From positions 1,302,211 to 1,366,210 of the forward strand of contig NZ_CP118181.1 in assembly GCF_028748145.1 (NCBI RefSeq): a DNA stretch of 64,000 bases. Direction: 5' to 3'. Shown piece by piece: positions 922-39,047 of this stretch (position 1 is its first letter; the number at the start of each line of letters is the position of its first letter). Under the pieces are notes generated by a model. That model had not been told where the DNA came from, did no database searches, and worked only from the letters and a program-made list of their open reading frames with translations. Source of the DNA: Entomospira culicis. GTDB taxonomy: Bacteria; Spirochaetota; Spirochaetia; WRBN01. A program made the position numbers and the translations under genes.

Positions 922-950
922 CATCATTTCCTCATCTTCTACGTGATTTT

Positions 951-990
951 CATGCAAAATGACCTCCTTCTATCTAAGCCATTTTGCATG
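951..990 (-). promoter_or_regulatory. Perfect 11-bp inverted repeat in fabG-fabF gap with Shine-Dalgarno in the loop
   Basis: The arms CATGCAAAATG (951-961) and CATTTTGCATG (980-990) are perfectly complementary, with an 18-nt loop. On the fab mRNA the loop contains AAGGAGG, and the downstream arm holds an ATG opening a four-codon frame (M-K-I-T-stop) just before fabF. This could be a regulatory hairpin, a translational coupler or a processing site. No U-run follows, so it is not a typical terminator. The function is inferred only from position and symmetry. Confidence 0.55.
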
Positions 991-1018
991 CTCCTTCTTT
1001 TAATGACCTAACGGGTCA

Positions 1019-1759: not shown

Positions 1760-1819
1760 TTGCATCGCTCCTCTCTTTCTATCGATTCCTCTTCACAAGA
1801 AGAGGTTATTCTTTCTAAA

Positions 1820-2782
1820 TTACTCTTGCATGCGCGCCAACAGCATCTCTACTTCGGGCATCTGCATACAACGGAACATCTCGTAATTTGCACCATTACC
1901 ACGCATCAACGCGCTCAAGACATTGCCTGGCCCAACCTCTACTGCCACTCGCTCACGAAAACGCGTTTGCGCATCAGAAATGATCCCTTGCCATAAGACA
2001 GGATGGCTAATCTGCTCACTTAAGTGATGCTGGATCTCTTTGCCTGTCGACAAAATTCCGCCCGTAACATTGCTGTATAAGGGAACTTTGGGGCTAGCAA
2101 AACGCAAGCCTGTAATCACCGATTTAAACTCCAATGAAGCCTTAGACAAAAGCGGAGTATGAAAAGGTCCCGAGACGGTCAACTTGATGACACGCTTGGC
2201 ACCCGCCTCTTTAAGGAGAGGTTCTAAGCGATCGATTTGCGCAAGCAGACCCGAAATCACCACTTGATCAGGAGCGTTGTAGTTGGCAACAAAGACCTCG
2301 GTTTGATCGTTAAGCACTGCCTTCACCGCACCGGCGCTCAAACCCAAGACCGCTGCCATACCTGGCTCACCCACCTGTTTTTTAAATTCATTGCCCGCGT
2401 GATGCATAATACGCCCACGCTCATACACAAGACGAAAAGTCTCCTCCGCCGTCAAGACATCGGCTACCGCCAAAGCGGCATACTCTCCCAAACTAAAGCC
2501 AGCAACCCACGCGATATCCTCGCTACGAACCCCCGCCATGCGCAAGCCCACCATCCCCGCCAGACTTGCTAACGTAACGGCAGGTTGCGTATTGATTGTC
2601 TCTTTAAGCTCGGCTTCACTCCCCTCAAAGAGGAGCTTCTTCATATCCTTGCCACAGACATCGCTAGCCAATTCAAAGAGCGCCCGCACACTCGCGTGTT
2701 GGGTATAAAGCTCTTTCGCCATACCGGGGTGTTGCGCGCCTTGACCAGCAAAGAGTAAGGCTATTTTGGTTGTAAATTCCAT
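1820..2782 (-). CDS. fabD: Malonyl-CoA:ACP transacylase (FabD)
   Basis: Transfers malonyl from CoA to acyl carrier protein, supplying the extender unit for fatty-acid synthesis. The N-terminal GQGAQ motif, the nucleophile serine in GFSLGEYAAL (about residue 97) and the histidine in GPFHTPLL (about residue 208) match the family; 320 residues is typical. The ATG at 2782 follows GGAGGAG by about ten bases and lies inside the end of fabH (22-bp overlap), which suggests translational coupling. A longer TTG-initiated reading is possible but unsupported. The oxyanion-side residue is Phe (GFSLG) where many homologues have His (GHSLG). Confidence 0.96.
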   Translation of the reverse strand: MEFTTKIALLFAGQGAQHPGMAKELYTQHASVRALFELASDVCGKDMKKLLFEGSEAELKETINTQPAVTLASLAGMVGLRMAGVRSEDIAWVAGFSLGEYAALAVADVLTAEETFRLVYERGRIMHHAGNEFKKQVGEPGMAAVLGLSAGAVKAVLNDQTEVFVANYNAPDQVVISGLLAQIDRLEPLLKEAGAKRVIKLTVSGPFHTPLLSKASLEFKSVITGLRFASPKVPLYSNVTGGILSTGKEIQHHLSEQISHPVLWQGIISDAQTRFRERVAVEVGPGNVLSALMRGNGANYEMFRCMQMPEVEMLLARMQE

Positions 2783-3753
2783 CGTATATAGACTCCTCCC
2801 CAAGTGAGACCTGCACCAAAGCCTACCAACAAGAGATGTTGCCCTGCTTTGAGTTTTCCTTCGTCGTACATTTGACGCAAGGCAAGCGGAATGCTCGCGG
2901 CACTGGTGTTGCCCATTTGGCTAATGTTCATATAAAATTTATCGGATGGCCAGCCCTTTCTCTCCAATAACGCATCGATCATTCGTGCATTTGCTTGGTG
3001 AGGGACGACCCAATCAATATCATCCATGGTTAGAGCATTGCGGATAGATAGCTCCTCAACCAGTTCGCCTAGAATACGCACACCAAAACGATAGACACGT
3101 GCGCCATCCATGTGTAGAGCGCTCTGGCTGGGCTCTTCAACGACAGGTTGCTTCACGCCACCAGCAGGGCGACTCAACGCCACGGGATCGCCCTCGGAGT
3201 GGAGTACAAAGTCAACAATATCATCTTCCCCGTCGCGATCATCCTTATAGAGCACCATCGCACCTGCGCCGTCGCCAAAGAGAACCGCTGTTTTACGATC
3301 GTGCCAATTTAAGATGCTCGAAAGTTTCTCAGCCCCCACCACAAGCGCATACTTCATCGTTTTAGACGCTTTGAGCAGGGCATACGCGTTACTTAATGCG
3401 TAGACAAAGCCACTACAAGCTGCGCGCACGTCAAAACTGGCAGCCCCCACCGCGTTTAGCTCTTTTTGTACTAAATTTGCCGTGGCAGGAAAGCCTAAGT
3501 AATCGGGAGTAGCCGTAGCTACTACGATCAAATCGAGCTCTTGACCACTGATACCGGCCATCGCTAGTGCCATCTTGGCGCTCTCTACCGACATAAATGC
3601 GGTGCTCTCTTCATCATTGGCGATGCGACGCTCTTTAATACCCGTATGACTTTGAATCCATTCATCGGTCGTATCAACATAAGCTTGCCACTCATCATTT
3701 GCCATAATCTTCTTGGGTAGATAGCTACCAATTCCCATAATGTTAATTGCCAT
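2761..3753 (-). CDS. fabH: 3-oxoacyl-ACP synthase III (FabH)
   Basis: Beta-ketoacyl-ACP synthase III initiates fatty-acid synthesis by condensing acetyl-CoA with malonyl-ACP. The catalytic triad is visible: Cys in RAACSGF (about residue 113), His in VPHQAN and Asn in GNTSAAS. Length is 330 residues. It is the first gene of the visible fab operon. An upstream in-frame ATG at 3762 exists, but the predicted -10 box (3763-3768) abuts it and the predicted transcript start is about 3756, so the ATG at 3753 is favoured, giving an almost leaderless mRNA. The opposing possibility is that AGGA serves as Shine-Dalgarno from a more distant promoter. Confidence 0.95.
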   Translation of the reverse strand: MAINIMGIGSYLPKKIMANDEWQAYVDTTDEWIQSHTGIKERRIANDEESTAFMSVESAKMALAMAGISGQELDLIVVATATPDYLGFPATANLVQKELNAVGAASFDVRAACSGFVYALSNAYALLKASKTMKYALVVGAEKLSSILNWHDRKTAVLFGDGAGAMVLYKDDRDGEDDIVDFVLHSEGDPVALSRPAGGVKQPVVEEPSQSALHMDGARVYRFGVRILGELVEELSIRNALTMDDIDWVVPHQANARMIDALLERKGWPSDKFYMNISQMGNTSAASIPLALRQMYDEGKLKAGQHLLLVGFGAGLTWGGVYIRWNLQPK

Positions 3754-3762
3754 AATACACAT

Positions 3763-3791
3763 ATCCTAGCCTTATATCATAGAATTGTCAA
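3763..3791 (-). promoter_or_regulatory. Predicted fab operon promoter
   Basis: On the minus strand, TTGACA (3786-3791) and TAGGAT (3763-3768) are separated by 17 bp. The predicted start of transcription is near 3756, three bases before the fabH ATG. The -35 hexamer is perfect, but the -10 matches consensus at only four of six positions. Confidence 0.55.
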
Positions 3792-3827
3792 GAGAAGATT
3801 TAGGCAATTTATGCAATAAATCTTCTC
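3792..3827. repeat. Perfect 11-bp inverted repeat abutting the fab -35 box
   Basis: The arms GAGAAGATTTA (3792-3802) and TAAATCTTCTC (3817-3827) are perfectly complementary around a 14-nt spacer. One arm directly touches the predicted -35 hexamer of the fab promoter, a common place for an operator. No U-tract follows on the minus strand, so it is a poor terminator for a gene upstream of fabH. It does not resemble the FapR or FabT consensus as I know them. Confidence 0.5.
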
Positions 3828-3841
3828 GTAACGGCTCTTGA

Positions 3842-4768
3842 CTACTTCATCGCCTCACGAATGAAGTTGGCACTAGTATGATATAATTTAAGTTCCTCGT
3901 CGGTTAGGGGATACTCCAAGACCTTTTCGATACCATTCTTGCCCACTACCGACAACGCACCGATCACCAAATTATCGATGCCATACTCACCATGAAGCAA
4001 TGCACTCACCGGCATAATGCGCGACTCATTCTGGGCAACGGCGCTAAAAATCGTGTACACCGACGCGCCAATACCATGATCGGTATAGCCACGCGTATTA
4101 TAAATATCCAGCCCGCGTTGACGCACAAACTGCATCGCCTCCTCCTTATTAATAAGAGGAACTCCCTTCACCTTGCTAAACTCATCCACATGCAACCCAG
4201 CCACCTGTGCAATGCTCCAAGGGACAAAAGAGCTATTGCCATGCTCGCCCAAGACAAACGAGGTAACATTCGTTGCGCTTACATCAAAATGCATCGAGAT
4301 ATAGCGACGTAAACGCACCGTATCCAAAATATCCCCCGATCCCAATACGCGATGGTGGGGCATGCCACTATATTTAATAAAGTAGTAAGTCATTGCGTCC
4401 ACAGGATTGCTAGTAATAATTACGATAGCATTCGGCGAATACTTAGCCACCGCTTGCCCAATCTCGCGCATCAACTTCTCATTCTCTGCCAATAGCGCGC
4501 GACGATCGGTTAAATTCTTCGCAGGGATACTGGCATTGACGAAGACATAATCACAATCCTTAATATCGCTATAATCCTCTGCCACGCGCATATGACTATA
4601 GTGATTAAAGTGGCCAAGTGGCACCGAATCCTCAAAATCCCAAATCTCTGCCTGCGTGCGCGCCTTGTTGATGTCGTACACCACAATCTCTTGCGATGCG
4701 GAAAATTGAAACAAGTAGAGCAAGACCTCCTTGCCCACCATCCCTAAGCCAATAATTCCTATCTTCAT
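3842..4768 (-). CDS. L-lactate/malate dehydrogenase family oxidoreductase, atypical specificity residue
   Basis: NAD-dependent 2-hydroxyacid dehydrogenase of the LDH/MDH superfamily, 308 residues. Seen: the Rossmann GLGMVG motif (residues 7-12), an acidic residue in VVYDIN typical of NAD preference, SNPVDAMTYY, the catalytic Asp/Arg segment GSGDILDTVRLR, and the catalytic His in GEHGNSS. The substrate-specificity position, Gln in lactate and Arg in malate dehydrogenases, aligns with Ala83 (IPAKNLTDRR), with Arg89 conserved six residues later. The substrate is therefore uncertain. The start follows AAGGAG by eight bases; a longer frame upstream lacks support. It is divergent from the pyridoxal kinase gene. 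Confidence 0.85.
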   Translation of the reverse strand: MKIGIIGLGMVGKEVLLYLFQFSASQEIVVYDINKARTQAEIWDFEDSVPLGHFNHYSHMRVAEDYSDIKDCDYVFVNASIPAKNLTDRRALLAENEKLMREIGQAVAKYSPNAIVIITSNPVDAMTYYFIKYSGMPHHRVLGSGDILDTVRLRRYISMHFDVSATNVTSFVLGEHGNSSFVPWSIAQVAGLHVDEFSKVKGVPLINKEEAMQFVRQRGLDIYNTRGYTDHGIGASVYTIFSAVAQNESRIMPVSALLHGEYGIDNLVIGALSVVGKNGIEKVLEYPLTDEELKLYHTSANFIREAMK

Positions 4769-4900
4769 CGATCTTTCTCCTTTACAATCGCATTCTTTCT
4801 CTTTACCTTTACAGCAAGCTACGCTATAATGATAAGCACAGTATACTCTATTTTGGAAAAAACGAGAATACTTTATCAAAATTATTATAAGGAGTTTGAT

Positions 4901-5767
4901 ATGAATTTGATCAACGCACCCAAAGTCATGGCAATGCACGACCTCTGTAGCTATGGCCGCTCCAGCCTAAATGTGGTTGTTCCCCTGCTTGCCACCACCA
5001 ATTGCTACTGTTGTTCGCTACCCACCGCCCTACTCTCTAGCCACTTTGGCTTTGGCACGCAACCTAGCTTACTCGACCTAAGCGAAGAACTCTTACGCAT
5101 TTATGACAAATGGGATGCCATGAATCTCCACTTTGATGCCTTCTACTCTGGCTATCTCGCCTCACCCGAGCAAGTAGCTATCGCCCAAAAATTTATCCAA
5201 CGCTTTACTCCGCGCTTCATCTACATCGACCCCGTCTTAGGTGACAATGGCAAACTCTACCCCGCCTTCGATCAAAAACAAGTCAAAGCCATGCGAACTC
5301 TCCTCAAAAGCGCCCACGTCAGCTCCCCCAACCTCACCGAAGCCAATGCACTCCTAGGTCTCCCTCTCGATCAACCCTTCGCGCAGAGCAACGCCAAAAA
5401 TTTTCTACAAAACCTCAGCGAGCTTGGCCCTAAAATCGCCATCGTTACCGGCATTCACGACCCAGAACGTCAACGCATCACCAGCTACCTCTTCGACAAA
5501 GAAAAAAATCTCTACTTCAAAGTACACGCTCCGCTCCACCTCAAGAGCCCAAAGGGTCTCCACGGCACAGGCGACTCCTTCGCCTCCATCGTAACCGGAC
5601 GCATGCTCGCCCACAACGACCAACCTCAAGATGCCGTAGCCCTCGCCATGCACTACCTCGATCAGGCTATCAAAGGGGCAATCCGCTTCCAAGAAGAGAT
5701 CGCCATCGAGTACCCCCTCGAAGATCTTATCGCTCATCACACCAGAGCCGAGGTAGAAAATTTTTAA
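4901..5767 (+). CDS. pdxY: Pyridoxal/pyridoxamine kinase (PfkB-like, PdxY/PdxK type)
   Basis: ATP-dependent kinase of vitamin B6 salvage, phosphorylating pyridoxal, pyridoxine or pyridoxamine to feed the PLP pool. The 288-residue protein has the N-terminal HDLCSYGRSSLNV segment, the YSGYLASPEQ region, YIDPVLGD in the middle and the anion-hole/catalytic motif HGTGDSFAS near the C-terminus. The start at 4901 follows AAGGAG with a spacing of six; an upstream in-frame extension from 4829 is promoter-like sequence. A relative acting on hydroxymethylpyrimidine (ThiD) is possible but the overall pattern favours B6. Confidence 0.85.
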   Translation: MNLINAPKVMAMHDLCSYGRSSLNVVVPLLATTNCYCCSLPTALLSSHFGFGTQPSLLDLSEELLRIYDKWDAMNLHFDAFYSGYLASPEQVAIAQKFIQRFTPRFIYIDPVLGDNGKLYPAFDQKQVKAMRTLLKSAHVSSPNLTEANALLGLPLDQPFAQSNAKNFLQNLSELGPKIAIVTGIHDPERQRITSYLFDKEKNLYFKVHAPLHLKSPKGLHGTGDSFASIVTGRMLAHNDQPQDAVALAMHYLDQAIKGAIRFQEEIAIEYPLEDLIAHHTRAEVENF

Positions 5768-5799
5768 TCCCACCCCAAGAGAGATAGCGAGGTCATTCT

Positions 5800-6543
5800 C
5801 TATGATTTATGTGCTAAAACGATTAATCGCTCTGCATCTTGATCGTAAGGAGTGCCCTCCAAGCTACCAAAAAATTCCACCTCACTAAAGCCAGCCTCAT
5901 TCAATAACGTGCCCAGCTCCCATGCGCTGTAAATTTTATGCGAAAAGATCGTCTCCTCGTACACGCCATCTTTAACATAGCCCCAGCGGTTCTCCACCCG
6001 CGACCAACCATCCAAAATCCGCGCGCCCACCATCATAATCGATCCGTCTTGCCCATCAAACCACTGGCTCTCGCAAAAATTCTTCGCCAACGTCTCCTTA
6101 CCCTCAATATCGATTAAAAAGCTCCCCCCTGATTTTAAACTTGTATAGACATTGCGCAACGCCTGCAACTCTTCTTCGGCATCCTCAATATAACCCAAAC
6201 TGGTGAAAAAATTATAAGCAAAATCAAACCGATCTGGTGCAACAAAACTACGTATATCCGCCTCGATGAATTCCACATTCAAGTTACGCTTTTTCGCCTT
6301 GCCCCGCGCCAAATCCAGATAACTCGTACAACGATCCACCCCCGTAACCGCATATCCCAGCTTCGCGAACTCAAGTGCATGACGCCCAAATCCACAACAG
6401 TGATCGTAAATCACCGCCTTCTTGGGCAAATTTGCTAAGGCAATCATCTGCTCAACATCGGTAGGTGTTGCCGCCAACCGATCAGGATCAAACATCATCT
6501 CTTTATACTTTAACCAAAATAACTCATCCTCAAACCACGCCAT
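5800..6543 (-). CDS. Class I SAM-dependent methyltransferase
   Basis: A 247-residue cytosolic methyltransferase of unknown substrate. Motif I is seen as HCCGFGRHALEFA, followed by the acidic ribose-binding residue in VTGVDRC, an EADIR motif II-type segment and FLIDIEGKE further on. The architecture resembles the UbiE/Coq5-like or methyltransferase-25 groups. The start is supported by AGGAG seven bases upstream. It lies just downstream of tRNA-Leu and its terminator and runs in the same direction, convergent with the pyridoxal kinase. No partner genes hint at the substrate. Confidence 0.85.
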   Translation of the reverse strand: MAWFEDELFWLKYKEMMFDPDRLAATPTDVEQMIALANLPKKAVIYDHCCGFGRHALEFAKLGYAVTGVDRCTSYLDLARGKAKKRNLNVEFIEADIRSFVAPDRFDFAYNFFTSLGYIEDAEEELQALRNVYTSLKSGGSFLIDIEGKETLAKNFCESQWFDGQDGSIMMVGARILDGWSRVENRWGYVKDGVYEETIFSHKIYSAWELGTLLNEAGFSEVEFFGSLEGTPYDQDAERLIVLAHKS

Positions 6544-6557
6544 ACATATCTCCTAAT

Positions 6558-6584
6558 AAAAAAACCTATCTACAAGAAGATAGG
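6558..6584 (-). terminator. Rho-independent terminator after tRNA-Leu
   Basis: On the minus strand a 7-bp stem, CCTATCT/AGATAGG (6565-6571 with 6578-6584), is followed by a run of seven T (A-run 6558-6564 on the plus strand). It sits 17 bases downstream of the tRNA-Leu 3' end. Confidence 0.8.
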
Positions 6585-6600
6585 CTCTTTATTTTTTACT

Positions 6601-6682
6601 TACCGGAGATGGGACTTGAACCCATACACATCGCTGTGGCAGATTTTGAGTCTGCTGTGTCTACCAATTTCACCACTCCGGC
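6601..6682 (-). tRNA. tRNA-Leu (anticodon CAA)
   Basis: The 82-nt minus-strand sequence folds as a class II tRNA. The acceptor GCCGGAG pairs with CTCCGGT, the discriminator is A, and the TTCAAGT T-loop is present. The anticodon stem CAGA/TCTG encloses the loop CTCAAAA, giving anticodon CAA (reads UUG). A short variable arm suits leucine. CCA is not encoded. Confidence 0.95.
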
Positions 6683-6693
6683 ATTATGTAAAC

Positions 6694-6722
6694 ATTCTAC
6701 ATCATTTAGCAACTTTTGTCAA
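6694..6722 (-). promoter_or_regulatory. tRNA-Leu promoter
   Basis: TTGACA (6717-6722, minus strand), a 17-bp spacer and TAGAAT (6694-6699). The predicted initiation site near 6687 lies five bases before the tRNA 5' end. It occupies the gap between the TPR gene stop and the tRNA. Confidence 0.75.
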
Positions 6723-6732
6723 TCCTTCCGCA

Positions 6733-9714
6733 CTAAAATCCCCACGATACCGGCGGATTCTCTAAGAACATCGCCAGACTATCGTATAAATAAGTAGACT
6801 CCTGCCCAGCTACGGGATGAAGCAACGCGCGGAAATTCATCCCCGGAAGCTCCTGCGAAATAACCCTTGCGCGACTCTCAGGATCGCGGGAGAGCGCATC
6901 CCACAAGAACATCGCCTGTTGAAAGGCAATCTGTGCTTGCTGTTCAATCGCTACACGATTAGGGCTACGTTGCGCAAGATCGGCTAAAACCACACCCAGA
7001 TTATTATAAACCTTCATAAGGTACTCGCCATTCTCCCTACGCAAAACCTCCATCGCCGAAGCATCCGAAGAAGCCAATGCTAAACGCTCACTCTCTAAAA
7101 TCTCGCGCAACTCTTGATAATAGGCCTGCGCCGAAGCACTGCGACCATCCACCGCCAACGCCGTCGCCAAACTATAAATCGTATTAGCATGACCACTCTC
7201 CATCCCGTAAGCGAGGCTAAAGTTATTAATCGCGTTAGTCAAATCTCCACGATTGTAGGCAATATAACCGCGTTTGTAGCGTAAGTCAGCATCATCAAAA
7301 CTATTTTCCAGCGCCTTTTCATAGTGAATATCGGCAAGCTGAAGCGCCCGATCTCGAATATAAAAGATATCACCGAGCTCCAAATACATACGCCCATGGA
7401 AAGGATTGCGCCCAAGAATCCGACGCTCCACCCCATTTTCATAGTAGGCGATGGCACGTTCAAGCTCACTTTGCGCGCGCTCATCCATGATATTCTCTTT
7501 GAAGCGGAAATTTGCCGATCGACGGAAGACATCAATGTAAACTTCCGTATCGCGTAGCGTCATGGGTTGACGGTTCGCAATCAGAAATATCGCCTGACTC
7601 AAAGAGTTACTTGCGCTCGAGAGATCGCCCACCTCTTCATAAAAACGCGCCAATTGATAATGCAAAATCGGATCTTTCTCTTCTAACTCGATCGCCTTTT
7701 GCAAAAGCTTCTCCGCCTCCCCAGCGCGTCCTTGATCTAAAAACCAACTCGCTGCCAACGCCAATGTCGCAGGATCTAACTTCATCTTAGGATTCGCCTG
7801 AATATACCCAGCCCAACGTTCTATCTCTGTGCGATCGTTACGTAAAACAGAGAATTCGAGCAAACCCATCACCGTGCGATCCGATAACCCATCAGTCTGA
7901 ATAAGAATAGCATATACGTCACGCGCCTGTTTCAAACGACTCTCGTCGTAAGCACCCCAGCGCAATAAATTCTCCGATCGGGCGCTCAACATTTGCACAT
8001 CCTTGGAATTAACATCATTAAGATAGCGCACATAAATCTGATCCGCCCGCTCAAAATTGGAGCGATGCCGACTCTCAAAATCGCCATAGGTCAGATAGGC
8101 ACGTTGGGAGGTAGGATACGCGCGCAACAGGCGATCGTACATCTCCTGTGCTAATGTATACTGACGTTGACGGGTAAAAGCTTCGGCATACTCAAAGAAC
8201 CATCGCTGACGAGGCACTCCCTGAACCTGCATCGGCCCCGCTCGCCAACCATCATGTGCCACTCTAAAGTTAAGCATTGCCTCATCGTAATCGCCCGCCT
8301 CTAACATCACCAAGCCGTTGCGATAATACCATCCCGCCGTAAGCGGACGATAAATGGCAGAAAAACCAATAAAGACCACCAACGCCACAAGAACGGTAAC
8401 CACCATCACCGGCTTGACCCATGGCCAGGCAAGATGTTTAAAGTTATAGGCAAAGCCACCCCGACGCTTCTCAAACTCTTCGCCAGCATTCTGTTGATAG
8501 CGATTGGGTAAGATAATCGTCTGACCGGTAAGTTCTCGGACATCATTCACCAGAGAACGCGCAGAAGCTCGCTTAAGCAACTTTTTTGTTAAGCGTTGTA
8601 CCACCGCAGGTTCGGTCTCTTCACTAGCGAGAATTTTATGCATAGCCAAGCGTAAGTTACGCGGCAGGCGCGCCAAAGATGCGTTAATTTGATCAATCTT
8701 TTGTTGACTAAAGAGTAAACTCTCTGGATCAACGCTCTCTTCATCCTCTTCGTACGCATCCTCTTCTTCAGCATCGCTAACATCAGACTTCGCGGGACTC
8801 TCTTTCGCATCCACATTGATATCGCCAAAGTCGCCAAGATTAAAATCACTCTCCATGTGATCCACCGAATCTTCTTTAGCTTGATGATCAAGATCGCTCT
8901 CAGCAAGCAGATCGGCAGCATCTACCCCCTCACTTCCGTAGAGTACGGGTTCTTCATCGAGCATATCAGCAAGTTCATCGCCCTCACCCATGGCTAAAAT
9001 CGCCTGATCATCATCGCTATCGCCAAAGATCTCGATCGGTTTATCCATATCCATTAAATCCAGCGCATCATCCATATCAGGAAGCGCCAAGTCATCAATT
9101 CCCGTATCCAAGGAGCTCTCGTTTGTCATATTATATGTAGATTCCAGCTCACCAGAGGCATCATCTGCGCTATTCTCTGGGGTGCTCGGCGCTAAAGAGG
9201 CAAGTTCTTCGACAGAAATCGTATCCTCAAGCGCCTCCTCTTCCTGCTCATTGGGAAGTGGCGCATCTGGAAATAACTCGCCCTTGTTAGTAGCCTCATC
9301 CTCAACGGGATTATCTTCCGAGGGAAATTCATCTAAGGATAAATTCATATCGTCAAAGGAGGAGAAGTCTAATTCATCACTTGCATTCTCATCACGAAGC
9401 GTCTCTAACCCAGGATCCTCTAGGTTCGATAAATCAGCGCCATCAAAGTCAGCAAATGCCTCGGTTGGTTCCAGCGAGGGCTCTTCTTTCTTATCCTCAT
9501 CACTCATTTGCGACTCCTCTTGAGGTTCTGCATTGATATTCTCTTCACGATTGAGATCGGCCTCGCGAACAATGGCCTCGCGCTCAATTGTCGGTGATTG
9601 CTCCATTAGCACATCTTCTATGGATTCGCCACGTTTTTCGCGCCAAAGGGGCTCGTCGGAGAGATTTTCGAGAGTTTGTTTCAATTTATTTAAATCGTCA
9701 TTACCAGCCATCAT
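6733..9714 (-). CDS. Large membrane-anchored TPR protein with acidic N-terminal domain
   Basis: A 993-residue protein. Residues 1 to about 340 are Asp/Glu-rich, low complexity and probably disordered in the cytoplasm. A single strongly hydrophobic helix lies near residues 432-456 (VMVVTVLVALVVFIGF). The remaining ~530 residues are helical with recurring TPR signatures (for example RYKRGYIAYNRGDLTNAINN and HYQLARFYEEVGD) and should be periplasmic. No signal peptide precedes the acidic part. This layout is known among spirochaete TPR proteins, including periplasmic flagellar collar components of the FlcA type; that assignment is only a guess here. ATGs at 9714 and 9711 are both possible starts, with a weak Shine-Dalgarno. 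No promoter was identified in the gap upstream. Confidence 0.8.
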   Translation of the reverse strand: MMAGNDDLNKLKQTLENLSDEPLWREKRGESIEDVLMEQSPTIEREAIVREADLNREENINAEPQEESQMSDEDKKEEPSLEPTEAFADFDGADLSNLEDPGLETLRDENASDELDFSSFDDMNLSLDEFPSEDNPVEDEATNKGELFPDAPLPNEQEEEALEDTISVEELASLAPSTPENSADDASGELESTYNMTNESSLDTGIDDLALPDMDDALDLMDMDKPIEIFGDSDDDQAILAMGEGDELADMLDEEPVLYGSEGVDAADLLAESDLDHQAKEDSVDHMESDFNLGDFGDINVDAKESPAKSDVSDAEEEDAYEEDEESVDPESLLFSQQKIDQINASLARLPRNLRLAMHKILASEETEPAVVQRLTKKLLKRASARSLVNDVRELTGQTIILPNRYQQNAGEEFEKRRGGFAYNFKHLAWPWVKPVMVVTVLVALVVFIGFSAIYRPLTAGWYYRNGLVMLEAGDYDEAMLNFRVAHDGWRAGPMQVQGVPRQRWFFEYAEAFTRQRQYTLAQEMYDRLLRAYPTSQRAYLTYGDFESRHRSNFERADQIYVRYLNDVNSKDVQMLSARSENLLRWGAYDESRLKQARDVYAILIQTDGLSDRTVMGLLEFSVLRNDRTEIERWAGYIQANPKMKLDPATLALAASWFLDQGRAGEAEKLLQKAIELEEKDPILHYQLARFYEEVGDLSSASNSLSQAIFLIANRQPMTLRDTEVYIDVFRRSANFRFKENIMDERAQSELERAIAYYENGVERRILGRNPFHGRMYLELGDIFYIRDRALQLADIHYEKALENSFDDADLRYKRGYIAYNRGDLTNAINNFSLAYGMESGHANTIYSLATALAVDGRSASAQAYYQELREILESERLALASSDASAMEVLRRENGEYLMKVYNNLGVVLADLAQRSPNRVAIEQQAQIAFQQAMFLWDALSRDPESRARVISQELPGMNFRALLHPVAGQESTYLYDSLAMFLENPPVSWGF

Positions 9715-9877
9715 TCTTTATTTTCGGTTTTTTCCCTATACAACTAAAGAGCTATTCCATATTCTCTTAAATTTAACGCATGAGACCCTTTTCTTTTTTC
9801 TCTTTTTTGTCTATACTGACAACGTTCCTTAAGATATTTGGATAGATAGTTGGTGCAAAGGAGAGTAAAAAGTCATC

Positions 9878-10222
9878 GTGAAACCGCATTTTTATTGTGA
9901 TGTTTGTGGAAGCCAGGTGGATGCGCATTTAGATGCTTGCCCGCAGTGTCGGGTTAAATTTTCAGGGGTTCGTTGCCCTTCTTGCCTCTATCAGGGTACG
10001 ATTGAGCAATTTTTACACGGCTGTCCTAGTTGTGGCTACCAGCTTCATGCGCAAGCGCCTAAACTTAATCGTACAAAAACTACCTCTAGGCCAACGCCCA
10101 AAAGGAGATCCCCATATCCTTGGCACATTTCAAGTAAAAGTCTGACGATATTTGCAGTTGCTCTTATCTTTACGACATTTATGATTCTCTTTATCTATCA
10201 CGTACAAATCAGTCGCCTGTAA
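9878..10222 (+). CDS. Double zinc-ribbon protein with C-terminal membrane helix
   Basis: A 114-residue protein. Two CxxC pairs near residues 8-24 (CDVCG, CPQCR) and two more near residues 33-52 (CPSC, CPSCG) predict two zinc ribbons. A basic linker and a hydrophobic segment at about residues 90-108 (TIFAVALIFTTFMILFI) follow, making it a tail-anchored membrane protein with cytosolic zinc ribbons. The GTG start at 9878 has AAGGAG some 14 bases upstream, a long spacing; no better start is in frame. It is transcribed divergently from the TPR gene and converges with potD. Function unknown. Confidence 0.7.
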   Translation: MKPHFYCDVCGSQVDAHLDACPQCRVKFSGVRCPSCLYQGTIEQFLHGCPSCGYQLHAQAPKLNRTKTTSRPTPKRRSPYPWHISSKSLTIFAVALIFTTFMILFIYHVQISRL

Positions 10223-31121: not shown

Positions 31122-31136
31122 ATGAAAAAAATTTTT
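31122..31136 (+). pseudogene. 5' fragment of a secreted-protein gene cut by the element
   Basis: ATG AAA AAA ATT TTT with a good Shine-Dalgarno and promoter is the start of a signal-peptide-like sequence (MKKIF). Reading continues eleven codons into the transposable element and stops at 31172. The remainder of the gene resumes at 35146 after the element. The last eight bases are one copy of the target duplication. Confidence 0.75.
31129..31136. repeat. Target-site duplication, left copy
   Basis: AAATTTTT directly before the element's left end; an identical 8-mer is at 35139-35146. Eight base pairs is the duplication length known for IS1595-family insertions. Confidence 0.85.
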
Positions 31137-31163
31137 GGCAATAAGACACTTATGGGCTTGACT
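31137..31163 (+). repeat. Left terminal inverted repeat
   Basis: GGCAATAAG-A-CACTT-AT-GGGCTTG-A-CT. Compared with the reverse complement of 35112-35138, 23 of 27 positions match. The transposase promoter's -35 box (TTGACT) lies in its inner end. Confidence 0.85.
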
Positions 31164-31186
31164 AAAAATTAAAAATATAGTACAAT
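31158..31186 (+). promoter_or_regulatory. Transposase promoter overlapping the inverted repeat
   Basis: TTGACT (31158-31163, inside the left inverted repeat), a 17-bp spacer and TACAAT (31181-31186), about 20 bp before the transposase start. Confidence 0.65.
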
Positions 31187-31205
31187 GGTTATAAGAGGAA
31201 AAGTT

Positions 31206-32084
31206 ATGACTATTGTAGAGATTATTAGAAAGTATCAAACACAAGAGCAGTGCATACAGTTTTTAGAAAAAGCTAGATGGGCTGAAGGTGTTATTTGCCC
31301 TTATTGCAATTCTACTAAAACAGGTGCTAAAAAGGAAAGCAATCGCTCCCCCCGTCATCAGTGCTACTCTTGTCAAAAATCTTTTTCTGTTACTTCGGGT
31401 ACTATCTTTGATAATGCTAAACTTCTTCCTCAATGGTTTCAAATTTTAGCTCTTATGCTCAATGCTAAAAAATCTCTATCTTCTTATCAAATCTCAAGAG
31501 ATTTGGGCTTACGTCAAGGTACTGCCCTCAAAATCCAAAACAAGATTCGTGTAGCTATGAATACAAAAGAGAGTATCTTATTACAAGGAATAATAGAAAT
31601 GGACGAAACTTACATAGGAGGAAAACCTCGTGGCAATGTAGGAAAGAATAAGAGAGGTAGAGGGACAAACAAGACCGCAGTTGTTGGAGTGCAAGAGCGA
31701 GGAGGAGAAGTAAGAGTAGAAGTTGTAGATAGAGAAAAAGAGTCTATGAACTTTAAGACGTTAAAAAGAATCTTTGACGATAACGTGGATAAGATTAAGT
31801 CTATTTTAGTTACAGATGAATATTTAGGCTATGCTCCTATGGGGAACAATGGGGTCTCTCATTTTGTGATTAATCATAGCGAACGATTTGTAGCTGGGGA
31901 TGTGCATACTAATTCAATAGAAGGGTTTTGGAGTTTAATCAAGAGGGCTTGGTATGGTTCACATCATCACTATAGCAAGAAGAATACTCACTTGTACGTA
32001 GGAGAGACAAGCTATGTCTATAACAATCGAAAGAATAAGAACTTATTTATAGACACGATAGAAAAGATGTTAGAAAAATTTTAG
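31206..32084 (+). CDS. IS1595-family transposase
   Basis: Transposase of 292 residues from the ATG at 31206 (GAGGAA upstream; a start seven codons earlier is possible). The N-terminal zinc ribbon has CPYC (about 31-34) and CYSC. A helix-turn-helix-like stretch (SYQISRDLGLRQGTALKIQ) follows, then the ISXO2-type catalytic core: Asp in EMDETYIGGKPRG, Asp in VTDEYLGY and the terminal HTNSIEGFWSLIKRAW, where Asn/Glu replace or flank the third acidic residue as in this family. It appears intact, so the element may still be mobile. Confidence 0.93.
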   Translation: MTIVEIIRKYQTQEQCIQFLEKARWAEGVICPYCNSTKTGAKKESNRSPRHQCYSCQKSFSVTSGTIFDNAKLLPQWFQILALMLNAKKSLSSYQISRDLGLRQGTALKIQNKIRVAMNTKESILLQGIIEMDETYIGGKPRGNVGKNKRGRGTNKTAVVGVQERGGEVRVEVVDREKESMNFKTLKRIFDDNVDKIKSILVTDEYLGYAPMGNNGVSHFVINHSERFVAGDVHTNSIEGFWSLIKRAWYGSHHHYSKKNTHLYVGETSYVYNNRKNKNLFIDTIEKMLEKF

Positions 32085-32103
32085 GTGGAGTGGAGTTATA
32101 ATA

Positions 32104-34026
32104 ATGGCTAAAAAAGAAGTAATCACGGATATATGGGTTGCATCCCAATTAAAAGAGAATGGTATTAAGTTTGATGCTCAAGGTAGTAATGTCAAAGAGC
32201 TGAATGAAGCCTTAAAAACTGCGTCTAAGCGAGGAACTGGTAAGGTTGGTTTTCCTGAGTATGTAGCGGTTATTGGCGACTTTGTGCTAGTGATAGAAAA
32301 TAAGGCTGATGTTAATAAACATCTTGCTTTGACCTCTACAGGGCTTATTTCAACGGAAACAAAAGACGTGGTTGATTATGCTGTAAATGGAGCTTATTTT
32401 TATGCAAAGCACATCGCTCAAAATAGTCCTTTTAGAAAGGTCTTTGCAGTAGGGGTTTCTGGGGATGAAAAACACCACAAGATTACTCCACTATGGGTAG
32501 ATGATAGAGAGGGGTATAAAAAGTTAGAGGAACTTGAATCTTTTGTATGGTTTTCGCCGAAAAACATCCAAGAGTACTATATTAGATATGTGTTAGAAGA
32601 AGCAACAGATATTGAAAAAACTACGGAACAAATTTTAAAAGATGCGGCAGAATTGCACGAATATTTACGTAATTATGGTACTCTAAAAGACCAAGATAAG
32701 CCTTTAGTTGTGGCTGGAATCCTTTTGGCTTTAGATGAAATTGAATACGGGGGCTTTAGTCTTTCCTTGCTTACAGGCGACCAAACGCAAGGAAGTCGTG
32801 ATGGCGACAAACTAATGAATGCAATTAAAGGACGTTTAACCCGTTCTAATGTGGGGCCAGATGCCAAGAAGGATAAACTTCTTGCCGAATTTGCTATTTT
32901 CCACACCAGCTTTAGACTTAATGAAATTAATGAAACCTTAGGTAAAACTCCTCTCAAGTTTTACACGGAGTTTCTCTTTGAGCACGTGTTTAAAAACATA
33001 AAGTATCAAAAAACTTCAGAAGATTTTGTTGGTCGTTTTTATGGTGAGTTTATGAGCTATTCTGGCGGTGATGGTCAAACCTTGGGTATCATTTTAACCC
33101 CTAATCATATAACTGACTTAATGTGCGATTTAGTTGATGTTCAACCTGACGATGTAGTACTTGACCCTACTTGTGGAACTGCTGGCTTTTTGATTTCTGC
33201 AATGCATAGGATGTTAGCTAAGGCTAGTAATGAACAACAACGTAAGAATATTAAAAAAAAACAGCTACACGGTATCGAGCTACAAAGCAATATGTTTGCC
33301 GTAGCGGCTGCTAATATGATATTAAGACGAGACGGCAACAGCAATCTTGAATGTAGTGATTTTTTGAAAAAGAATCCCGCACAAGTGCAACTAAAAGGTG
33401 CAACCATCGGCTTGATGAATCCTCCCTACTCGCAAGGGTCAAAGGAAGACCCCTCTCAATATGAGTTAGCCTTTATGGAACAACTATTGAACTCATTAAC
33501 TACTGGTGCAAAGGCTGCCGTCATTGTCCCCCAATCCTCTATGACAGGTAAGACAAAGATAGAGCAAACATTAAGAGAGGGTATTCTTAAAAAACACACT
33601 TTAGAAGGAGTTATTACTTGTAATACGAATACTTTTTATGGGGTAGGAACAAACCCTGTTATTGCGATTTTTACAGCCCACGAACCACATGAGGCAGAGC
33701 ATATCTGCAAGTTTATCGATTTTAGAGAAGATGGCTATGAAGTAAGACAACACGTTGGCTTAGTAGAGAGTAATTCTGCCAAGGATAAACGCAAACATTT
33801 ACTAGATGTGTGGAATGGCAATACAGAAGCTCCCTCTAAGTTTTGTGTGGAAACAAGAGTAGAACCAAGTGATGAATGGTTGCATAGCTTTTATTACTTT
33901 AACGATGAGATACCCACAGATGCTGACTTTGAAAAAACGATAGGCGATTATCTTACCTTTGAGTTTTCGATGATTATGCAGAATCGAGAATACTTGTTTA
34001 ATGAGAAGGGAGAAAAAGATGATTAA
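32104..34026 (+). CDS. BcgI-like (type IIB) fused restriction endonuclease/adenine methyltransferase
   Basis: A 640-residue subunit. Near the N-terminus a PD-(D/E)xK-like nuclease motif is seen: Pro51-Glu52 in FPEYVAV and Glu65-Asn-Lys67 in VLVIENKAD. After a helical region comes an N6-adenine methylase: motif I DPTCGTAGF (about 354-362) and motif IV NPPY (439-442). The size and layout match BcgI subunit A rather than HsdM, which lacks the nuclease domain. It forms an overlapping pair with the specificity gene, and no hsdR is present. GGAG lies eight bases before the ATG. Predicted to cut on both sides of a bipartite site. Confidence 0.82.
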   Translation: MAKKEVITDIWVASQLKENGIKFDAQGSNVKELNEALKTASKRGTGKVGFPEYVAVIGDFVLVIENKADVNKHLALTSTGLISTETKDVVDYAVNGAYFYAKHIAQNSPFRKVFAVGVSGDEKHHKITPLWVDDREGYKKLEELESFVWFSPKNIQEYYIRYVLEEATDIEKTTEQILKDAAELHEYLRNYGTLKDQDKPLVVAGILLALDEIEYGGFSLSLLTGDQTQGSRDGDKLMNAIKGRLTRSNVGPDAKKDKLLAEFAIFHTSFRLNEINETLGKTPLKFYTEFLFEHVFKNIKYQKTSEDFVGRFYGEFMSYSGGDGQTLGIILTPNHITDLMCDLVDVQPDDVVLDPTCGTAGFLISAMHRMLAKASNEQQRKNIKKKQLHGIELQSNMFAVAAANMILRRDGNSNLECSDFLKKNPAQVQLKGATIGLMNPPYSQGSKEDPSQYELAFMEQLLNSLTTGAKAAVIVPQSSMTGKTKIEQTLREGILKKHTLEGVITCNTNTFYGVGTNPVIAIFTAHEPHEAEHICKFIDFREDGYEVRQHVGLVESNSAKDKRKHLLDVWNGNTEAPSKFCVETRVEPSDEWLHSFYYFNDEIPTDADFEKTIGDYLTFEFSMIMQNREYLFNEKGEKDD

Positions 34027-35080
34027 TGATAGGGAATGGGAAGCGTTTCATCTAAACACATTATTTCCCCTGATTACACGTGGTAAGCGACTGAAAACAG
34101 CAAGTCATATTACGGGTAATACCCCTTATGTTTCTTCAACTGCTTTAAATAATGGAGTTGATGGTTTTATTGGGAACGCAGATGGGATACGTATATTTTC
34201 CCATTGTTTATCTATTGCTAACAGTGGTAGCGTTGGCAAGGCTTTCTATCATCCTTACTCTTTTATTGCAAGCGATCACGTAACAGGGTTAAAAAATGAT
34301 AATTTTAATAATTTTATCTATCTTTTCATCTCTGTGTTACTAACACGATTACAGTATAAATATAGTTTTTATCGAGAAATTAATAACACGAGAATTAATA
34401 AAGAGATTATTCTCTTGCCAGTAACGGAGGATAATAAACCTGATTTTGAGTATATGACGCAATACACCAAGTCTAAAAAGGAGCTAATGCTCTCTCGTTA
34501 TCAAAAATATCTCTTAACTAAGCTAAGTAACCTTAGTTACAAAGAAATACCAGCTTTAAATGAGAAAGCGTGGAAACCTCTTAAAGTAAGTGAATTATTT
34601 CAAAAAATTGAAGCAACAAAAGGTAAGACTACAGACCAACTGATTGAAGGCGATGATGTACCTTATATAGCGGCTTCTAAGCTTAATAATGGGTATGTGT
34701 CGATGTGTAGTATTAAATCAAACCCTAACTGGGTTTCGAGAGGAAATTGTATTCTTTTTGTTCAGATAGGAGATGGTGCTGCTGGATTAGCCCACTATAT
34801 ACCGATGAACTTTATTGGTATGAGTGGGAAGACATCTTGTGGTTATGCCCATAAATTAAACTCTTTCAATGGTGTGTTTATAGCTAAATGCTTAAGTGTG
34901 AATAAACAAAAATTTTCTCACGGCTATAGTTGGACAGGTAATAGATTATTATCTACTAAAATTATGCTCCCTATCAATAATTTAGGAGAGCCTGATTTTG
35001 AGTATATGGAGCAGTATACAAAAAATATGATGCTTGAAAAATACAACCAATATTTAAAATTTTCTACTAAAAAAAACTAA
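34019..35080 (+). CDS. Specificity subunit of the BcgI-like system (HsdS-type)
   Basis: A 353-residue DNA-recognition subunit with two target-recognition domains in tandem. Each half has a WxxF/WKPL start, a PYVSSTALNNG or PYIAASKLNNG segment, an NSGSVGKAFYH-like or QIGDGAAG segment, and PDFEYM followed by Q-Y-T-K at its end, the usual HsdS/BcgI-B architecture. The internal repetition is obvious by eye. The ATG at 34019 has GGGAG upstream and overlaps the methylase stop (ATGATTAA); an in-frame ATG at 34001 is an alternative. The size is close to BcgI subunit B. Which bases it reads cannot be predicted. Confidence 0.85.
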   Translation: MINDREWEAFHLNTLFPLITRGKRLKTASHITGNTPYVSSTALNNGVDGFIGNADGIRIFSHCLSIANSGSVGKAFYHPYSFIASDHVTGLKNDNFNNFIYLFISVLLTRLQYKYSFYREINNTRINKEIILLPVTEDNKPDFEYMTQYTKSKKELMLSRYQKYLLTKLSNLSYKEIPALNEKAWKPLKVSELFQKIEATKGKTTDQLIEGDDVPYIAASKLNNGYVSMCSIKSNPNWVSRGNCILFVQIGDGAAGLAHYIPMNFIGMSGKTSCGYAHKLNSFNGVFIAKCLSVNKQKFSHGYSWTGNRLLSTKIMLPINNLGEPDFEYMEQYTKNMMLEKYNQYLKFSTKKN

Positions 35081-35104
35081 AAGGCGATTGTGCCTTTTAG
35101 TTTT
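35077..35104 (+). terminator. Terminator closing the restriction-modification pair
   Basis: A perfect 9-bp stem, CTAAAAGGC (35077-35085) with GCCTTTTAG (35092-35100), has a 6-nt loop and is followed by TTTT. It includes the stop codon of the specificity gene and lies inside the element's right end, insulating the host sequence. Confidence 0.8.
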
Positions 35105-35111
35105 AAAGATG

Positions 35112-35138
35112 AGACAAGCCCTCAAGTGCCTTATTGCC
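35112..35138 (-). repeat. Right terminal inverted repeat
   Basis: The reverse complement reads GGCAATAAG-G-CACTT-GA-GGGCTTG-T-CT and matches the left end at 23 of 27 positions. The right target duplication follows immediately. Confidence 0.85.
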
Positions 35139-35146
35139 AAATTTTT
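35139..35146. repeat. Target-site duplication, right copy
   Basis: AAATTTTT, identical to 31129-31136, directly after the right inverted repeat. Confidence 0.85.
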
Positions 35147-35805
35147 TACTGTTAATGGTGCTAGTTATAGCATTTGGATTAAATGGGCAAGATGCCTCGG
35201 CAGAGCACACTTGCGGAGCAAGCCGTAAATTTCCTAGTGATGTGCTTGTAGATTTTGATATGACTTACCAAGGGAAAGAGATAGAACTGATCTACAATTT
35301 GGATGAGAATAAGATAAGGTTGCTTGTGGAAGATGGTGGATTTTTAGAAAATTTTAACTTTATTGTCAATGGATACTCACCTCTCCCGGAGGCTGTGGCG
35401 CTAGCTTGGGAGCATGAGTCTATTATCCAGTATCTTAGTAAAGAGAGTGATTTTTATCAAGAGTTTGTACTGCGCAACCCTGACTCTAAAACTCTTGCCC
35501 AATTTAAGAGCGACCTGAAGAAGATCTTAAATTGTCGCTATGGGAGCATTAAGGTGATTAGTGAGGGCGTTGACTTTTTAGAGTATGAGGCAAATGGCAT
35601 GCGTTTTTATCATGGTTTCTTTTTAGCACCAAAAATGCATGAAAAAGAGACTCATACCTCGGATATTGCCTCGATAGAATTTATTGGTTATAGTAGTATT
35701 AAGAACTACGAAACGCGTAAAAGCACCTATATAAAGACGTTCCATAATAGTCGTGGTGTGTTGCAAAAGCATGTGAGAGAGCGAGGCATTACCCCCATTA
35801 GCTAA
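35146..35805 (+). pseudogene. 3' part of exported protein gene disrupted by the element
   Basis: An open frame of about 220 codons that begins in the right end of the element and has no proper start: TTG at 35134 is inside the inverted repeat, and ATG at 35155 has no Shine-Dalgarno. It opens with the hydrophobic core LLLMVLVIAFGLNG and an ASA cleavage-like site, so it was a secreted protein; the rest (EHTCGASRKF onward) is unrecognised. Joining it to the 5' fragment at 31122 after precise excision leaves an A7T6 tract that is one base out of frame, so the tract has probably drifted or the base count there is wrong. The body is still intact. Confidence 0.7.
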
Positions 35806-36935: not shown

Positions 36936-39047
36936 ATGACTGAAAAATATACTCAATATCTTGATTTAGTAAAAGAAAATGGGTTGAATCTAAACTCGAT
37001 CCATTCTGAAGAGAGGAATCAAGAGTTATCTAACCTAGCCTTTAATCAAATCATTAATCAAAACTTCAAGAGACCTTACGCCTTATATACCAAAGAAAAT
37101 GACATAGAGACCGTCATTGAACGTATCCTTTCTTACATACCTAAAAAATTTAGAACATACGAAATGTGTTTAAGTGCTTCAAAACTCAATCCATATCCTT
37201 TATTTGGCTACATTCCTAAAGAATACTTAATTTATGAAATCTACTTAGAGACTGTCAAAGCTTCCTACCCCCAAGATGAATTCGATGAATATGTTATAGC
37301 TTATATTCCAGATGAATTCAAAACATATGAACTATGCTGGGAAACAATTCAAAAATATCATCCAGAGCATGGTTTTGGAGATGAGTTTTCACTCTTTGAA
37401 ATTCTACCATATATACCAGAGGAAATAAAAACATATGCTTTTTATGTTGAAATCATTAAACTATATGATTGCGACATTGACAAAGATGTTATTCCTAAAA
37501 AGTACCTAAACAACAAATTTGAGATAGTTTTAAATCTTCTTAATGGAGGATCATGGTTACAATACACGCAACTTGAGTTTATCACCTATGAAATGGTATT
37601 AGATGCAATACAGCAAGAATCAGGCTTTAGACTTCTTCCTTATATTCCTGATAATTATTTAACCAAAGAATTATGGCTTACTATTCCAATACGAGATAGA
37701 GAGAATTGTCAAGAAGAAGATATGATTGACATCTGCCAAAGAACTTCATGCTACGATCTTTGTCTTGAATTAGTTAAAGAAGAAACCTTTTACTCTGCTT
37801 TAGAACACATTAAAGAGGAGTTTCATACCTATGATTTTTATTTAGAGGTTGCTAGACATTATGGATATCAATCCTTATTATATATAACTTATGAACAAAT
37901 TGAAGGTGATGATTTTGAAGATCTAATCGATGACGAGGTTTTACTTTTATCTCGACTATCAGAACCTAAAATAAAGAACCAAATACCAATTGAATTCCAA
38001 AGTGATGAACTATACTTAGCTGCATTCAACTATCCATTTAATGATTTTAATAATCAAGATTTAGAGGAAATTTTAGCTATAGTACCAACAAAATACCATA
38101 CTCCTGACATTTATCTTGCAATTATCAAACGTAATCCATTGTTAATAAAAGATATTCCAGGCGAACTACAAAATTACTCCTTTTATGTAAATACCGTTAG
38201 GCAAAATGGGAAAATTCTACAGTATCTTCCTCAAAATTTTGTTAGTGATGCTCTTTATTTAGAAGCTACAAAAAGTAATGGAGTAGCATTCGACTTGCTT
38301 CCTGAGGAATACAAGACCTATGAAATTTGTATTGAAGCTGTGGTACATAATCCTACTAATCTTAGATTTGTTCCAGATAAACATAAAGTAGATAATTTTT
38401 ACATAGAAACTTTTAATAAAAATCATCACCTATTATGGGAGATCCCAGAAGCCTTACGAACATGCGAAATGTATTATATCTTTATCCAACAAACCATTGA
38501 TAGCTTAAAAAAACGACCATCCTACTTCAGAAAAATCCATGATATCATAAAGCGTATACCAAACAATTGTAAATCCTATCAATTCTATTTAATCCTTCTA
38601 GAAAATAATATTACATCTTTAAAAGATGTACCTGACGAGCATAAAACCTATGAGCTTTGCTTAGCTGCTGTTACCAACAATGGTGATGCTTTGGAATACG
38701 TCCCAGATGAATATAAAACCTATGACATATGCCTTGTTAGCGTGAAGAATGCAGGATGGGCATTATCCCATGTGCCTAATAAGCATAGAACTTATGAACT
38801 TTGTCTTATTGCTATTAACCAAGATGGGCATTTGGAAGATATCCCAAATAAACTCAAAACTTTTGAACTATGCGCAGAAGCTATAAAAAAGGATCCAGAT
38901 AGAATCCAATCTATATTACCTTTGTTTCACGATGAAAAGAGTATTTATCAATTATGTTTAGAGGCTGTTAAACAAGATGTAAGCATTCTCTTTTGGTACG
39001 TCCCATTCAAATTCATTAACCAAATTATTATTGAGCTAAATATTTGA
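36936..39047 (+). CDS. DUF4116-like repeat protein, A+T-rich
   Basis: A 703-residue, acidic, cytosolic protein built of about 18-20 degenerate repeats of ~33 residues of the form (V/I)P-D-E-x-K-T-Y-E-L-C-L-x-A-V. The clearest lie in the last 150 residues (VPDEHKTYELCLAAV, VPDEYKTYDICLVSV, VPNKHRTYELCLIAI). The pattern resembles DUF4116, an alpha-helical repeat of unknown function. No signal peptide or membrane segment is seen. AGGAGG precedes the ATG at the right distance, but only 26 bp separate it from a strong terminator, so its promoter is not evident. Its base composition is markedly A+T-rich relative to neighbours, which suggests lateral acquisition. Confidence 0.75.
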   Translation: MTEKYTQYLDLVKENGLNLNSIHSEERNQELSNLAFNQIINQNFKRPYALYTKENDIETVIERILSYIPKKFRTYEMCLSASKLNPYPLFGYIPKEYLIYEIYLETVKASYPQDEFDEYVIAYIPDEFKTYELCWETIQKYHPEHGFGDEFSLFEILPYIPEEIKTYAFYVEIIKLYDCDIDKDVIPKKYLNNKFEIVLNLLNGGSWLQYTQLEFITYEMVLDAIQQESGFRLLPYIPDNYLTKELWLTIPIRDRENCQEEDMIDICQRTSCYDLCLELVKEETFYSALEHIKEEFHTYDFYLEVARHYGYQSLLYITYEQIEGDDFEDLIDDEVLLLSRLSEPKIKNQIPIEFQSDELYLAAFNYPFNDFNNQDLEEILAIVPTKYHTPDIYLAIIKRNPLLIKDIPGELQNYSFYVNTVRQNGKILQYLPQNFVSDALYLEATKSNGVAFDLLPEEYKTYEICIEAVVHNPTNLRFVPDKHKVDNFYIETFNKNHHLLWEIPEALRTCEMYYIFIQQTIDSLKKRPSYFRKIHDIIKRIPNNCKSYQFYLILLENNITSLKDVPDEHKTYELCLAAVTNNGDALEYVPDEYKTYDICLVSVKNAGWALSHVPNKHRTYELCLIAINQDGHLEDIPNKLKTFELCAEAIKKDPDRIQSILPLFHDEKSIYQLCLEAVKQDVSILFWYVPFKFINQIIIELNI

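Follow-up and report, generated by a model that had tools for sequence, protein, structure and literature searches.

Restriction-modification (R-M) systems are widespread across bacteria by transfer, and the route by which the small ones move is often unclear. In the window, a 64,000-nucleotide stretch of the Entomospira culicis chromosome, a transposase gene is followed closely by the genes of a two-component R-M system, and the locus raises the question of whether the three genes form a single mobile unit. With a probability of roughly 0.93, we conclude that they make up a 4.0-kb "transporter IS", a single-transposase IS1595 transposon that has a complete BcgI-like type IIB R-M system of two genes as its passenger.

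The element occupies positions 31137–35138 of the window, a 4,002-bp segment placed by a GGC-end pattern search at genome positions 1333347–1337348. Its left terminal inverted repeat (31137–31163, plus strand) is GGCAATAAGACACTTATGGGCTTGACT, with an inner TTATGGGCTTGAC that is common to the left ends of related IS1595 elements; the right repeat (35112–35138, minus strand) matches it at 23 of 27 positions and lacks the promoter half-site discussed below (GGGCTTGTC). By sequence inspection, both are bordered by the 8-bp target-site duplication (TSD) AAATTTTT, at 31129–31136 on the left and 35139–35146 on the right. The ends read GGCAATAAG...GGGCTTGAC; they have a GG/CG start and resemble those of relatives such as L133 (GGCAATAAACAGTTTGGGGCTTGAC) and L150 (GGCAATTAGTAGTTAGGGGCTTGAC). 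A/T-rich 8-bp duplications are typical of IS1595, and the TSDs of 43 relatives identified in this work are 86% A/T. The element has a G+C content of 36.4%, compared with 45.7% in the rest of the window.

Could an IS1595 remnant simply lie beside an unrelated R-M locus, the repeat and the duplication being fortuitous? Such a reading would fit the single copy of the 4,002-bp element in the chromosome, as well as the finding that most close relatives of the restriction protein are located on plasmids and prophages, away from any IS1595, but it is largely refuted by the ends themselves. When the surrounding 6 kb were shuffled 200 times with dinucleotide content preserved, the highest score of an inverted repeat adjoining an exact 8-bp repeat was 16/25, whereas the element scores 21/25. 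The initial annotation had noted 27-bp repeats and a perfect duplication, and both are thus borne out. Moreover, the inner end sequence TATGGGCTTGAC recurs in the left ends of related IS1595 elements and the three-gene plan recurs in two further elements (see below), so that we regard a chance neighbourhood as highly improbable.

The leftmost gene (31206–32084, plus strand) encodes an IS1595/ISXO2-like transposase with an N-terminal zinc ribbon and a DDE domain. The protein matches the Pfam profiles DDE_Tnp_IS1595 (PF12762, 1e-28) and Zn_ribbon_IS1595 (PF12760, 4e-8) as well as NCBIfam NF033547 (5e-48; 163.7 bits against a cut-off of 75), and an alignment with its relatives, to which it is about 35–50% identical, shows conservation of D140, D211, E246 and the CxxC pairs. 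Its reading frame is open from 31185 (299 aa); a start at 31206 (292 aa) is more likely because the −10 box of the putative promoter shares bases with the ATG at 31185 and the relatives align from the later methionine. A composite transposon was rejected, since there is one transposase gene and no second IS copy in the chromosome; passengers unrelated to transposition and a single IS-type transposase share one pair of ends. Plasmid p28 of strain BR149 (NZ_CP118187.1) also carries an IS1595 transposase, at about 7.65–8.5 kb and 40% identical to that of the window, around which no convincing ends or duplication could be found.

The two passenger genes follow in the same orientation, and all three genes of the element are intact, read left to right, and are separated by short gaps or overlaps. 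The first (32104–34026, plus strand) encodes a 640-aa BcgI-A-like fusion of a restriction nuclease and an N6-adenine methyltransferase (RM) with PE-ExK at residues 51–67, DPxxGT at 354 and NPPY at 439. Residues 3–635 match the PADLOC profile REase_MTase_IIG (PDLC03602, 637 positions) at 8e-163, and the N6_Mtase domain (PF02384) is recognized by Pfam; nuclease and methyltransferase thus reside in one polypeptide. In an alignment of ten sequences (52–81% identity to the window protein), P51, E65, K67, D354-P355 and N439-P-P-Y are conserved. The second gene (34019–35080, plus strand) starts within the first, overlapping its stop by 8 bp, and encodes a 353-aa BcgI-B-like specificity subunit (S) with two target-recognition domains. 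S matches PADLOC Specificity_II (PDLC03591) at 2e-36, contains Methylase_S in two stretches according to Pfam, and has an internal repeat marked by PDFEYM(T/E)QYTK segments; it is a separate subunit. The layout given in the initial annotation, with the transposase at the left and a nuclease-methylase/specificity pair filling the rest, was recovered by these searches. Its two class assignments, to IS1595 and to BcgI-like systems, agree with the profiles as well, the former also with the ends and the 8-bp duplication, and both with related elements that have their own ends and cargo of the same kind.

The closest relatives of RM (76–81% identity) are encoded on a plasmid of Ligilactobacillus (Bacillota) and on viral contigs, without IS1595; nor was any IS1595 found near the relatives of RM that lactobacillar and Butyrivibrio plasmids carry. 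A 4,054-bp record labelled "Bacteriophage sp.", whose RM is 50% identical, was considered as a free transposon circle and discarded, as it has neither an IS1595 transposase nor the ends.

Two other elements display the same plan. On a viral contig (L220, IMG/VR 3300028044_000015), positions 2979–6999 hold a 4,021-bp element with ends matching at 19 of 25 positions and the perfect TSD TAATTTAT; its genes for a transposase, a 609-aa RM and a 377-aa S follow one another in this order, overlapping or adjacent, and its transposase and RM are 33% and 30% identical to those of the window. In a genome of the same phylum and another family (L072, G126:C21), a 3,942-bp element with perfect 42-bp inverted ends encodes a transposase, apparently truncated at its N-terminus, a 598-aa RM and a 315-aa S. 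Its TSD matches at 6 of 8 positions, and as this is imperfect, the ends were found by an end search without a TSD requirement. Taken together, the two have transposases 33–39% and RMs about 30% identical to their window counterparts, compared with 41% and 52% between each other. Both RMs belong to PADLOC family PDLC03608, that of the window to PDLC03602. Because the RM families differ and the closest relatives of the window RM are without IS1595, IS1595 transposons appear to have captured type IIB systems independently at least twice. Just upstream of the IS1595–R-M element of L072, positions 9740–10063 encode a 107-aa fragment resembling the N-terminus of the adjacent RM and overlapping the element end, which reads as if an earlier related R-M copy once stood there.

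The window element interrupts a gene for a secreted-protein-like product, of which the start (31122–31136, plus strand; ATG followed by an A7T5-6 tract) lies to the left and the remainder (35147–35805), whose frame encodes the signal-peptide-like stretch FLLLMVLVIAFG, to the right. Rejoining the flanks in silico leaves the reading frame shifted by one base in the A/T tract; therefore, the target tract has either changed since the insertion or was already out of frame. Slippage probably altered it, before or after the insertion, and an A/T tract at the start that is out of frame is what one would expect of a gene whose start is prone to slippage and possibly phase-variable. No polymorphic empty site was found between the two genomes of the order that were compared, the flanking gene of one having no counterpart in the other. 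Stretches paralogous to the interrupted gene (29–31%) occur at genome positions 1396793–1397773, and a 703-aa protein with DUF4116 repeats (Pfam, 5e-36) is encoded downstream of the element, at 36936–39047 of the window.

Whether the element can still move is a separate matter. A search with its ends, suggested in the initial annotation as a way to find further copies, returned the exact ends only at the window among 393 genomes of the phylum and the viral contigs, so that this element species is known from one copy; no second copy with a different 8-bp duplication exists in the E. culicis genome. The element may thus have inserted as described and since become immobile, its R-M genes being kept for host benefit alone, as the four differences between the ends in 27 positions and the one-base offset in the target tract would also allow. 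Three intact frames, conserved catalytic positions and a still perfect TSD speak against such a fossil, and we consider it possible but rather unlikely.

The left end of the transporter IS probably has a second role. A sigma-70-like promoter, TTGACT-N17-TACAAT, was picked up by a consensus scan at 31158–31186 on the plus strand; its −35 box falls within the left terminal repeat. This lone match is weak evidence for a promoter because the scan gives 15 matches against 13.5 expected. Among the 43 related elements with ends and duplication, however, the strict pattern TTGAC-N18-TANNNT is present in 17 left ends compared with 2 right ends (and in about 0.1% of shuffles). On the transposase side, TTGAC forms part of GGGCTTGAC, the conserved motif of the inner end; the opposite side has usually lost it. 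This bias, together with the position of TTGAC within the conserved motif, makes it very likely that the left end doubles as a promoter, which likely drives the transposase, RM and S genes together. At the other extremity, a hairpin with a 13-bp stem (35073–35104) lies just inside the right end, after S; it is small and A/T-rich, the longer run of T residues lies on the minus strand, and it is a putative bidirectional terminator, in keeping with the terminator proposed for this end in the initial annotation.

We then surveyed related elements by scanning GTDB genomes with the window transposase aligned to three of its relatives as the query. From the best 80 loci, 43 have clear ends and a duplication, and 27 of these bounded elements carry a methyltransferase or R-M gene, a proportion that, like the one in viral contigs given below, applies to this part of IS1595 only, since the surveys were seeded by transposases near that of the window. 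The cargo of 25 of the 43 is an N6/N4 methylase whose C-terminal domain is REase-like; its gene nearly always comes right after that of the transposase, often with a 4-bp overlap. L121 carries a 941-aa fused nuclease-methylase-specificity protein, and L135 a separate N4/N6 methylase with a 204-aa protein. Two further scans, of viral contigs, yielded 84 distinct bounded elements, about 13 of them with methylase or R-M genes, for example a C5 methylase with an HNH nuclease (L310), a D12 adenine methylase with a PD-(D/E)XK nuclease (L263; the same nuclease is present in L277), a C5 methylase with an unknown protein of 245–251 aa (L091, L262 and L320), and a fused 933-aa enzyme (L391). A 788-aa fused R-M-S enzyme lies in an IS1595 element with the TSD TAAATTTT (L083, G111, positions 405–5233) that was later broken by another insertion; the inserted element, which codes for a protein of 372 aa that looks IS110-type-like, divides the transposase gene in two. 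Overall, at least seven R-M or methylase architectures were seen as IS1595 cargo, and many other elements surveyed carry different cargo or none. L105 and L165 were excluded from the counts for doubtful best-scoring boundaries (a nested element, or ends that are not IS1595-like), and several viral loci with large-span boundaries that are probably spurious, such as L335 and L337, were left out of the tally of R-M elements.

The N6/N4-methylase elements, about 2.6 kb long and found in Pseudomonadota, Chloroflexota, Nitrospirota and other phyla, have the transposases nearest to that of the window (40–51%) and share with it the inner end motif, the promoter placement and cargo directly downstream. 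They differ in that the cargo is a single fused methylase of another class with an Mrr/REase-like C-terminus; this nuclease-like domain may be inactive, as its Pfam assignment (NA-iREase1) suggests. For 28 non-redundant pairs, transposase and methylase distances are strongly correlated (Mantel r = 0.887; none of 2000 permutations was as high), and because of this correlation the methylase appears to be a stable part of the element in that lineage. Among 89 transposases placed in a maximum-likelihood tree, the window protein groups with this clade with support of 94/80, its long branch making the position uncertain, and the transposase of L072, despite its type IIB cargo, falls elsewhere, beside the C5-methylase element L091.

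Such co-divergence, and the related transposases and RMs of L072 and L220, might be taken to mean that all IS1595–R-M elements stem from one ancient capture, the cargo having diverged later. We think this improbable: the cargo is non-homologous in architecture (C5 methylase with HNH; D12 methylase with PD-(D/E)XK; fused R-M-S; RM with S; N6/N4 methylase), L148 has its methylase encoded on the opposite strand, and the relatives among which the window RM is nested lack IS1595.

Other genes also occur as cargo or neighbours. RhuM, KilA-N, P63C and DruA-like genes are present in the IMG/VR elements L287, L262, L278, L375, L270, L255 and L339, and several match PADLOC candidate defence families; compact defence genes may be a more general cargo of the IS1595 family. 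In L077 (G192:C6, positions 916–5276) and L073 (G376:C17), transposases of the same class stand beside open reading frames of 437–456 aa that look TnpB-like by eye; L077 has the inverted ends CGGAATTATCCC and the perfect duplication AATAATTT.

We propose the following sequence of events for the window element. The transposase would cut or copy the element at its 27-bp ends and insert it at A/T-rich 8-bp targets, and the promoter with its −35 box in the left end would then drive transposase, RM and S. With the promoter so placed, an end-bound transposase could damp the expression of all three genes, and transposase binding may in this way regulate the R-M genes. After arrival, an RM2-S complex would methylate and cleave bipartite sites; this would guard the host from foreign DNA and may render the element costly to lose. 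The element may move between genomes with an addictive R-M passenger, as the initial annotation envisaged. Alternatively, the passenger could be a defence gene selected for phage restriction, with no addictive hold of the transposon on its host. The defence-like cargo of viral-contig IS1595 elements, including KilA-N and RhuM (PADLOC candidate families) and DruA-like genes, favours this alternative, but type II R-M systems have been found to promote their own maintenance and to act in concert with IS elements (PaeR7I with IS1/IS5; PMC3031569), and we place its likelihood only a little below even.

The element resembles known systems in several respects. The ISsaga paper (PMC3129680), in a passage citing Siguier et al. 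2009, links IS copies with passenger genes, "transporter ISs", to the IS1595 family; the window element is like those attributed there to Siguier, Gagnevin and Chandler in its IS1595 transposase, GG-starting inverted ends, 8-bp duplications, passengers and one transposase. ISApl4, of the IS1016 subgroup of IS1595, makes A/T-rich 8-bp duplications, forms a circular intermediate and, in copies 6 and 7, carries the same duplication AAATTTTT as the window element (PMC12561309), with which it shares the family. Unlike the latter, it is 712 bp long and has no passenger, and it mobilizes resistance genes only when two copies form a pseudo-compound transposon. In BcgI-like enzymes, both activities depend on RM as well as S, and the DNA is cut on either side of the site (PMC3874165); the window system shares with them the RM fusion and the separate two-domain S, and its proteins of 640 and 353–359 aa are close in size to the matched PADLOC profiles (637 and 341). 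In contrast to the free-standing BcgI locus, it lies inside an IS1595 element and is read from its end. The presence of R-M systems on insertion sequences and transposons is documented in general (PMC4176335). Composite or putative transposons bear the Rhizobium leguminosarum VF39SM R-M system and PluTI, according to passages of PMC3031569, and the movement of PaeR7I is IS-linked, with joint action of R-M and IS1/IS5 (PMC3031569). In these cases too, insertion-sequence machinery moves R-M genes, but through flanking IS copies or IS-mediated co-integration, whereas those of the window are enclosed by the pair of ends of one single-transposase element.

These precedents confirm the background of the initial annotation that some IS1595 members carry passengers, a named class in the cited part of PMC3129680, and narrow its proposal of an undescribed system, in that both this class and R-M systems on transposons are known. 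A literature search found no paper joining IS1595 with R-M cargo; key IS literature lies outside its coverage, so this is weak evidence of novelty. The repeated appearance of R-M cargo on IS1595, the prolonged parallel divergence with a methylase and the promoter in the left end may surprise a specialist.

Judging from the related IS1595 elements with differing R-M systems in bacterial genomes and viral contigs, the pattern extends well beyond the window locus. We tentatively suggest, at somewhat less than even odds, that IS1595 transposons serve generally as carriers of compact R-M systems organized as one operon, captured many times and with the methylase fixed in some lineages, and that the left-end promoter ties cargo to transposase and so co-regulates transposition and R-M. 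A single-transposase family that repeatedly carries complete R-M systems offers a concrete vehicle that can be tested in bacterial genomes and viral contigs, and a setting in which to ask whether restriction aids the persistence of a transposon or the transposon merely ferries a useful defence. For annotation, it suggests that methylases adjoining IS1595 transposases are best treated as parts of one element.
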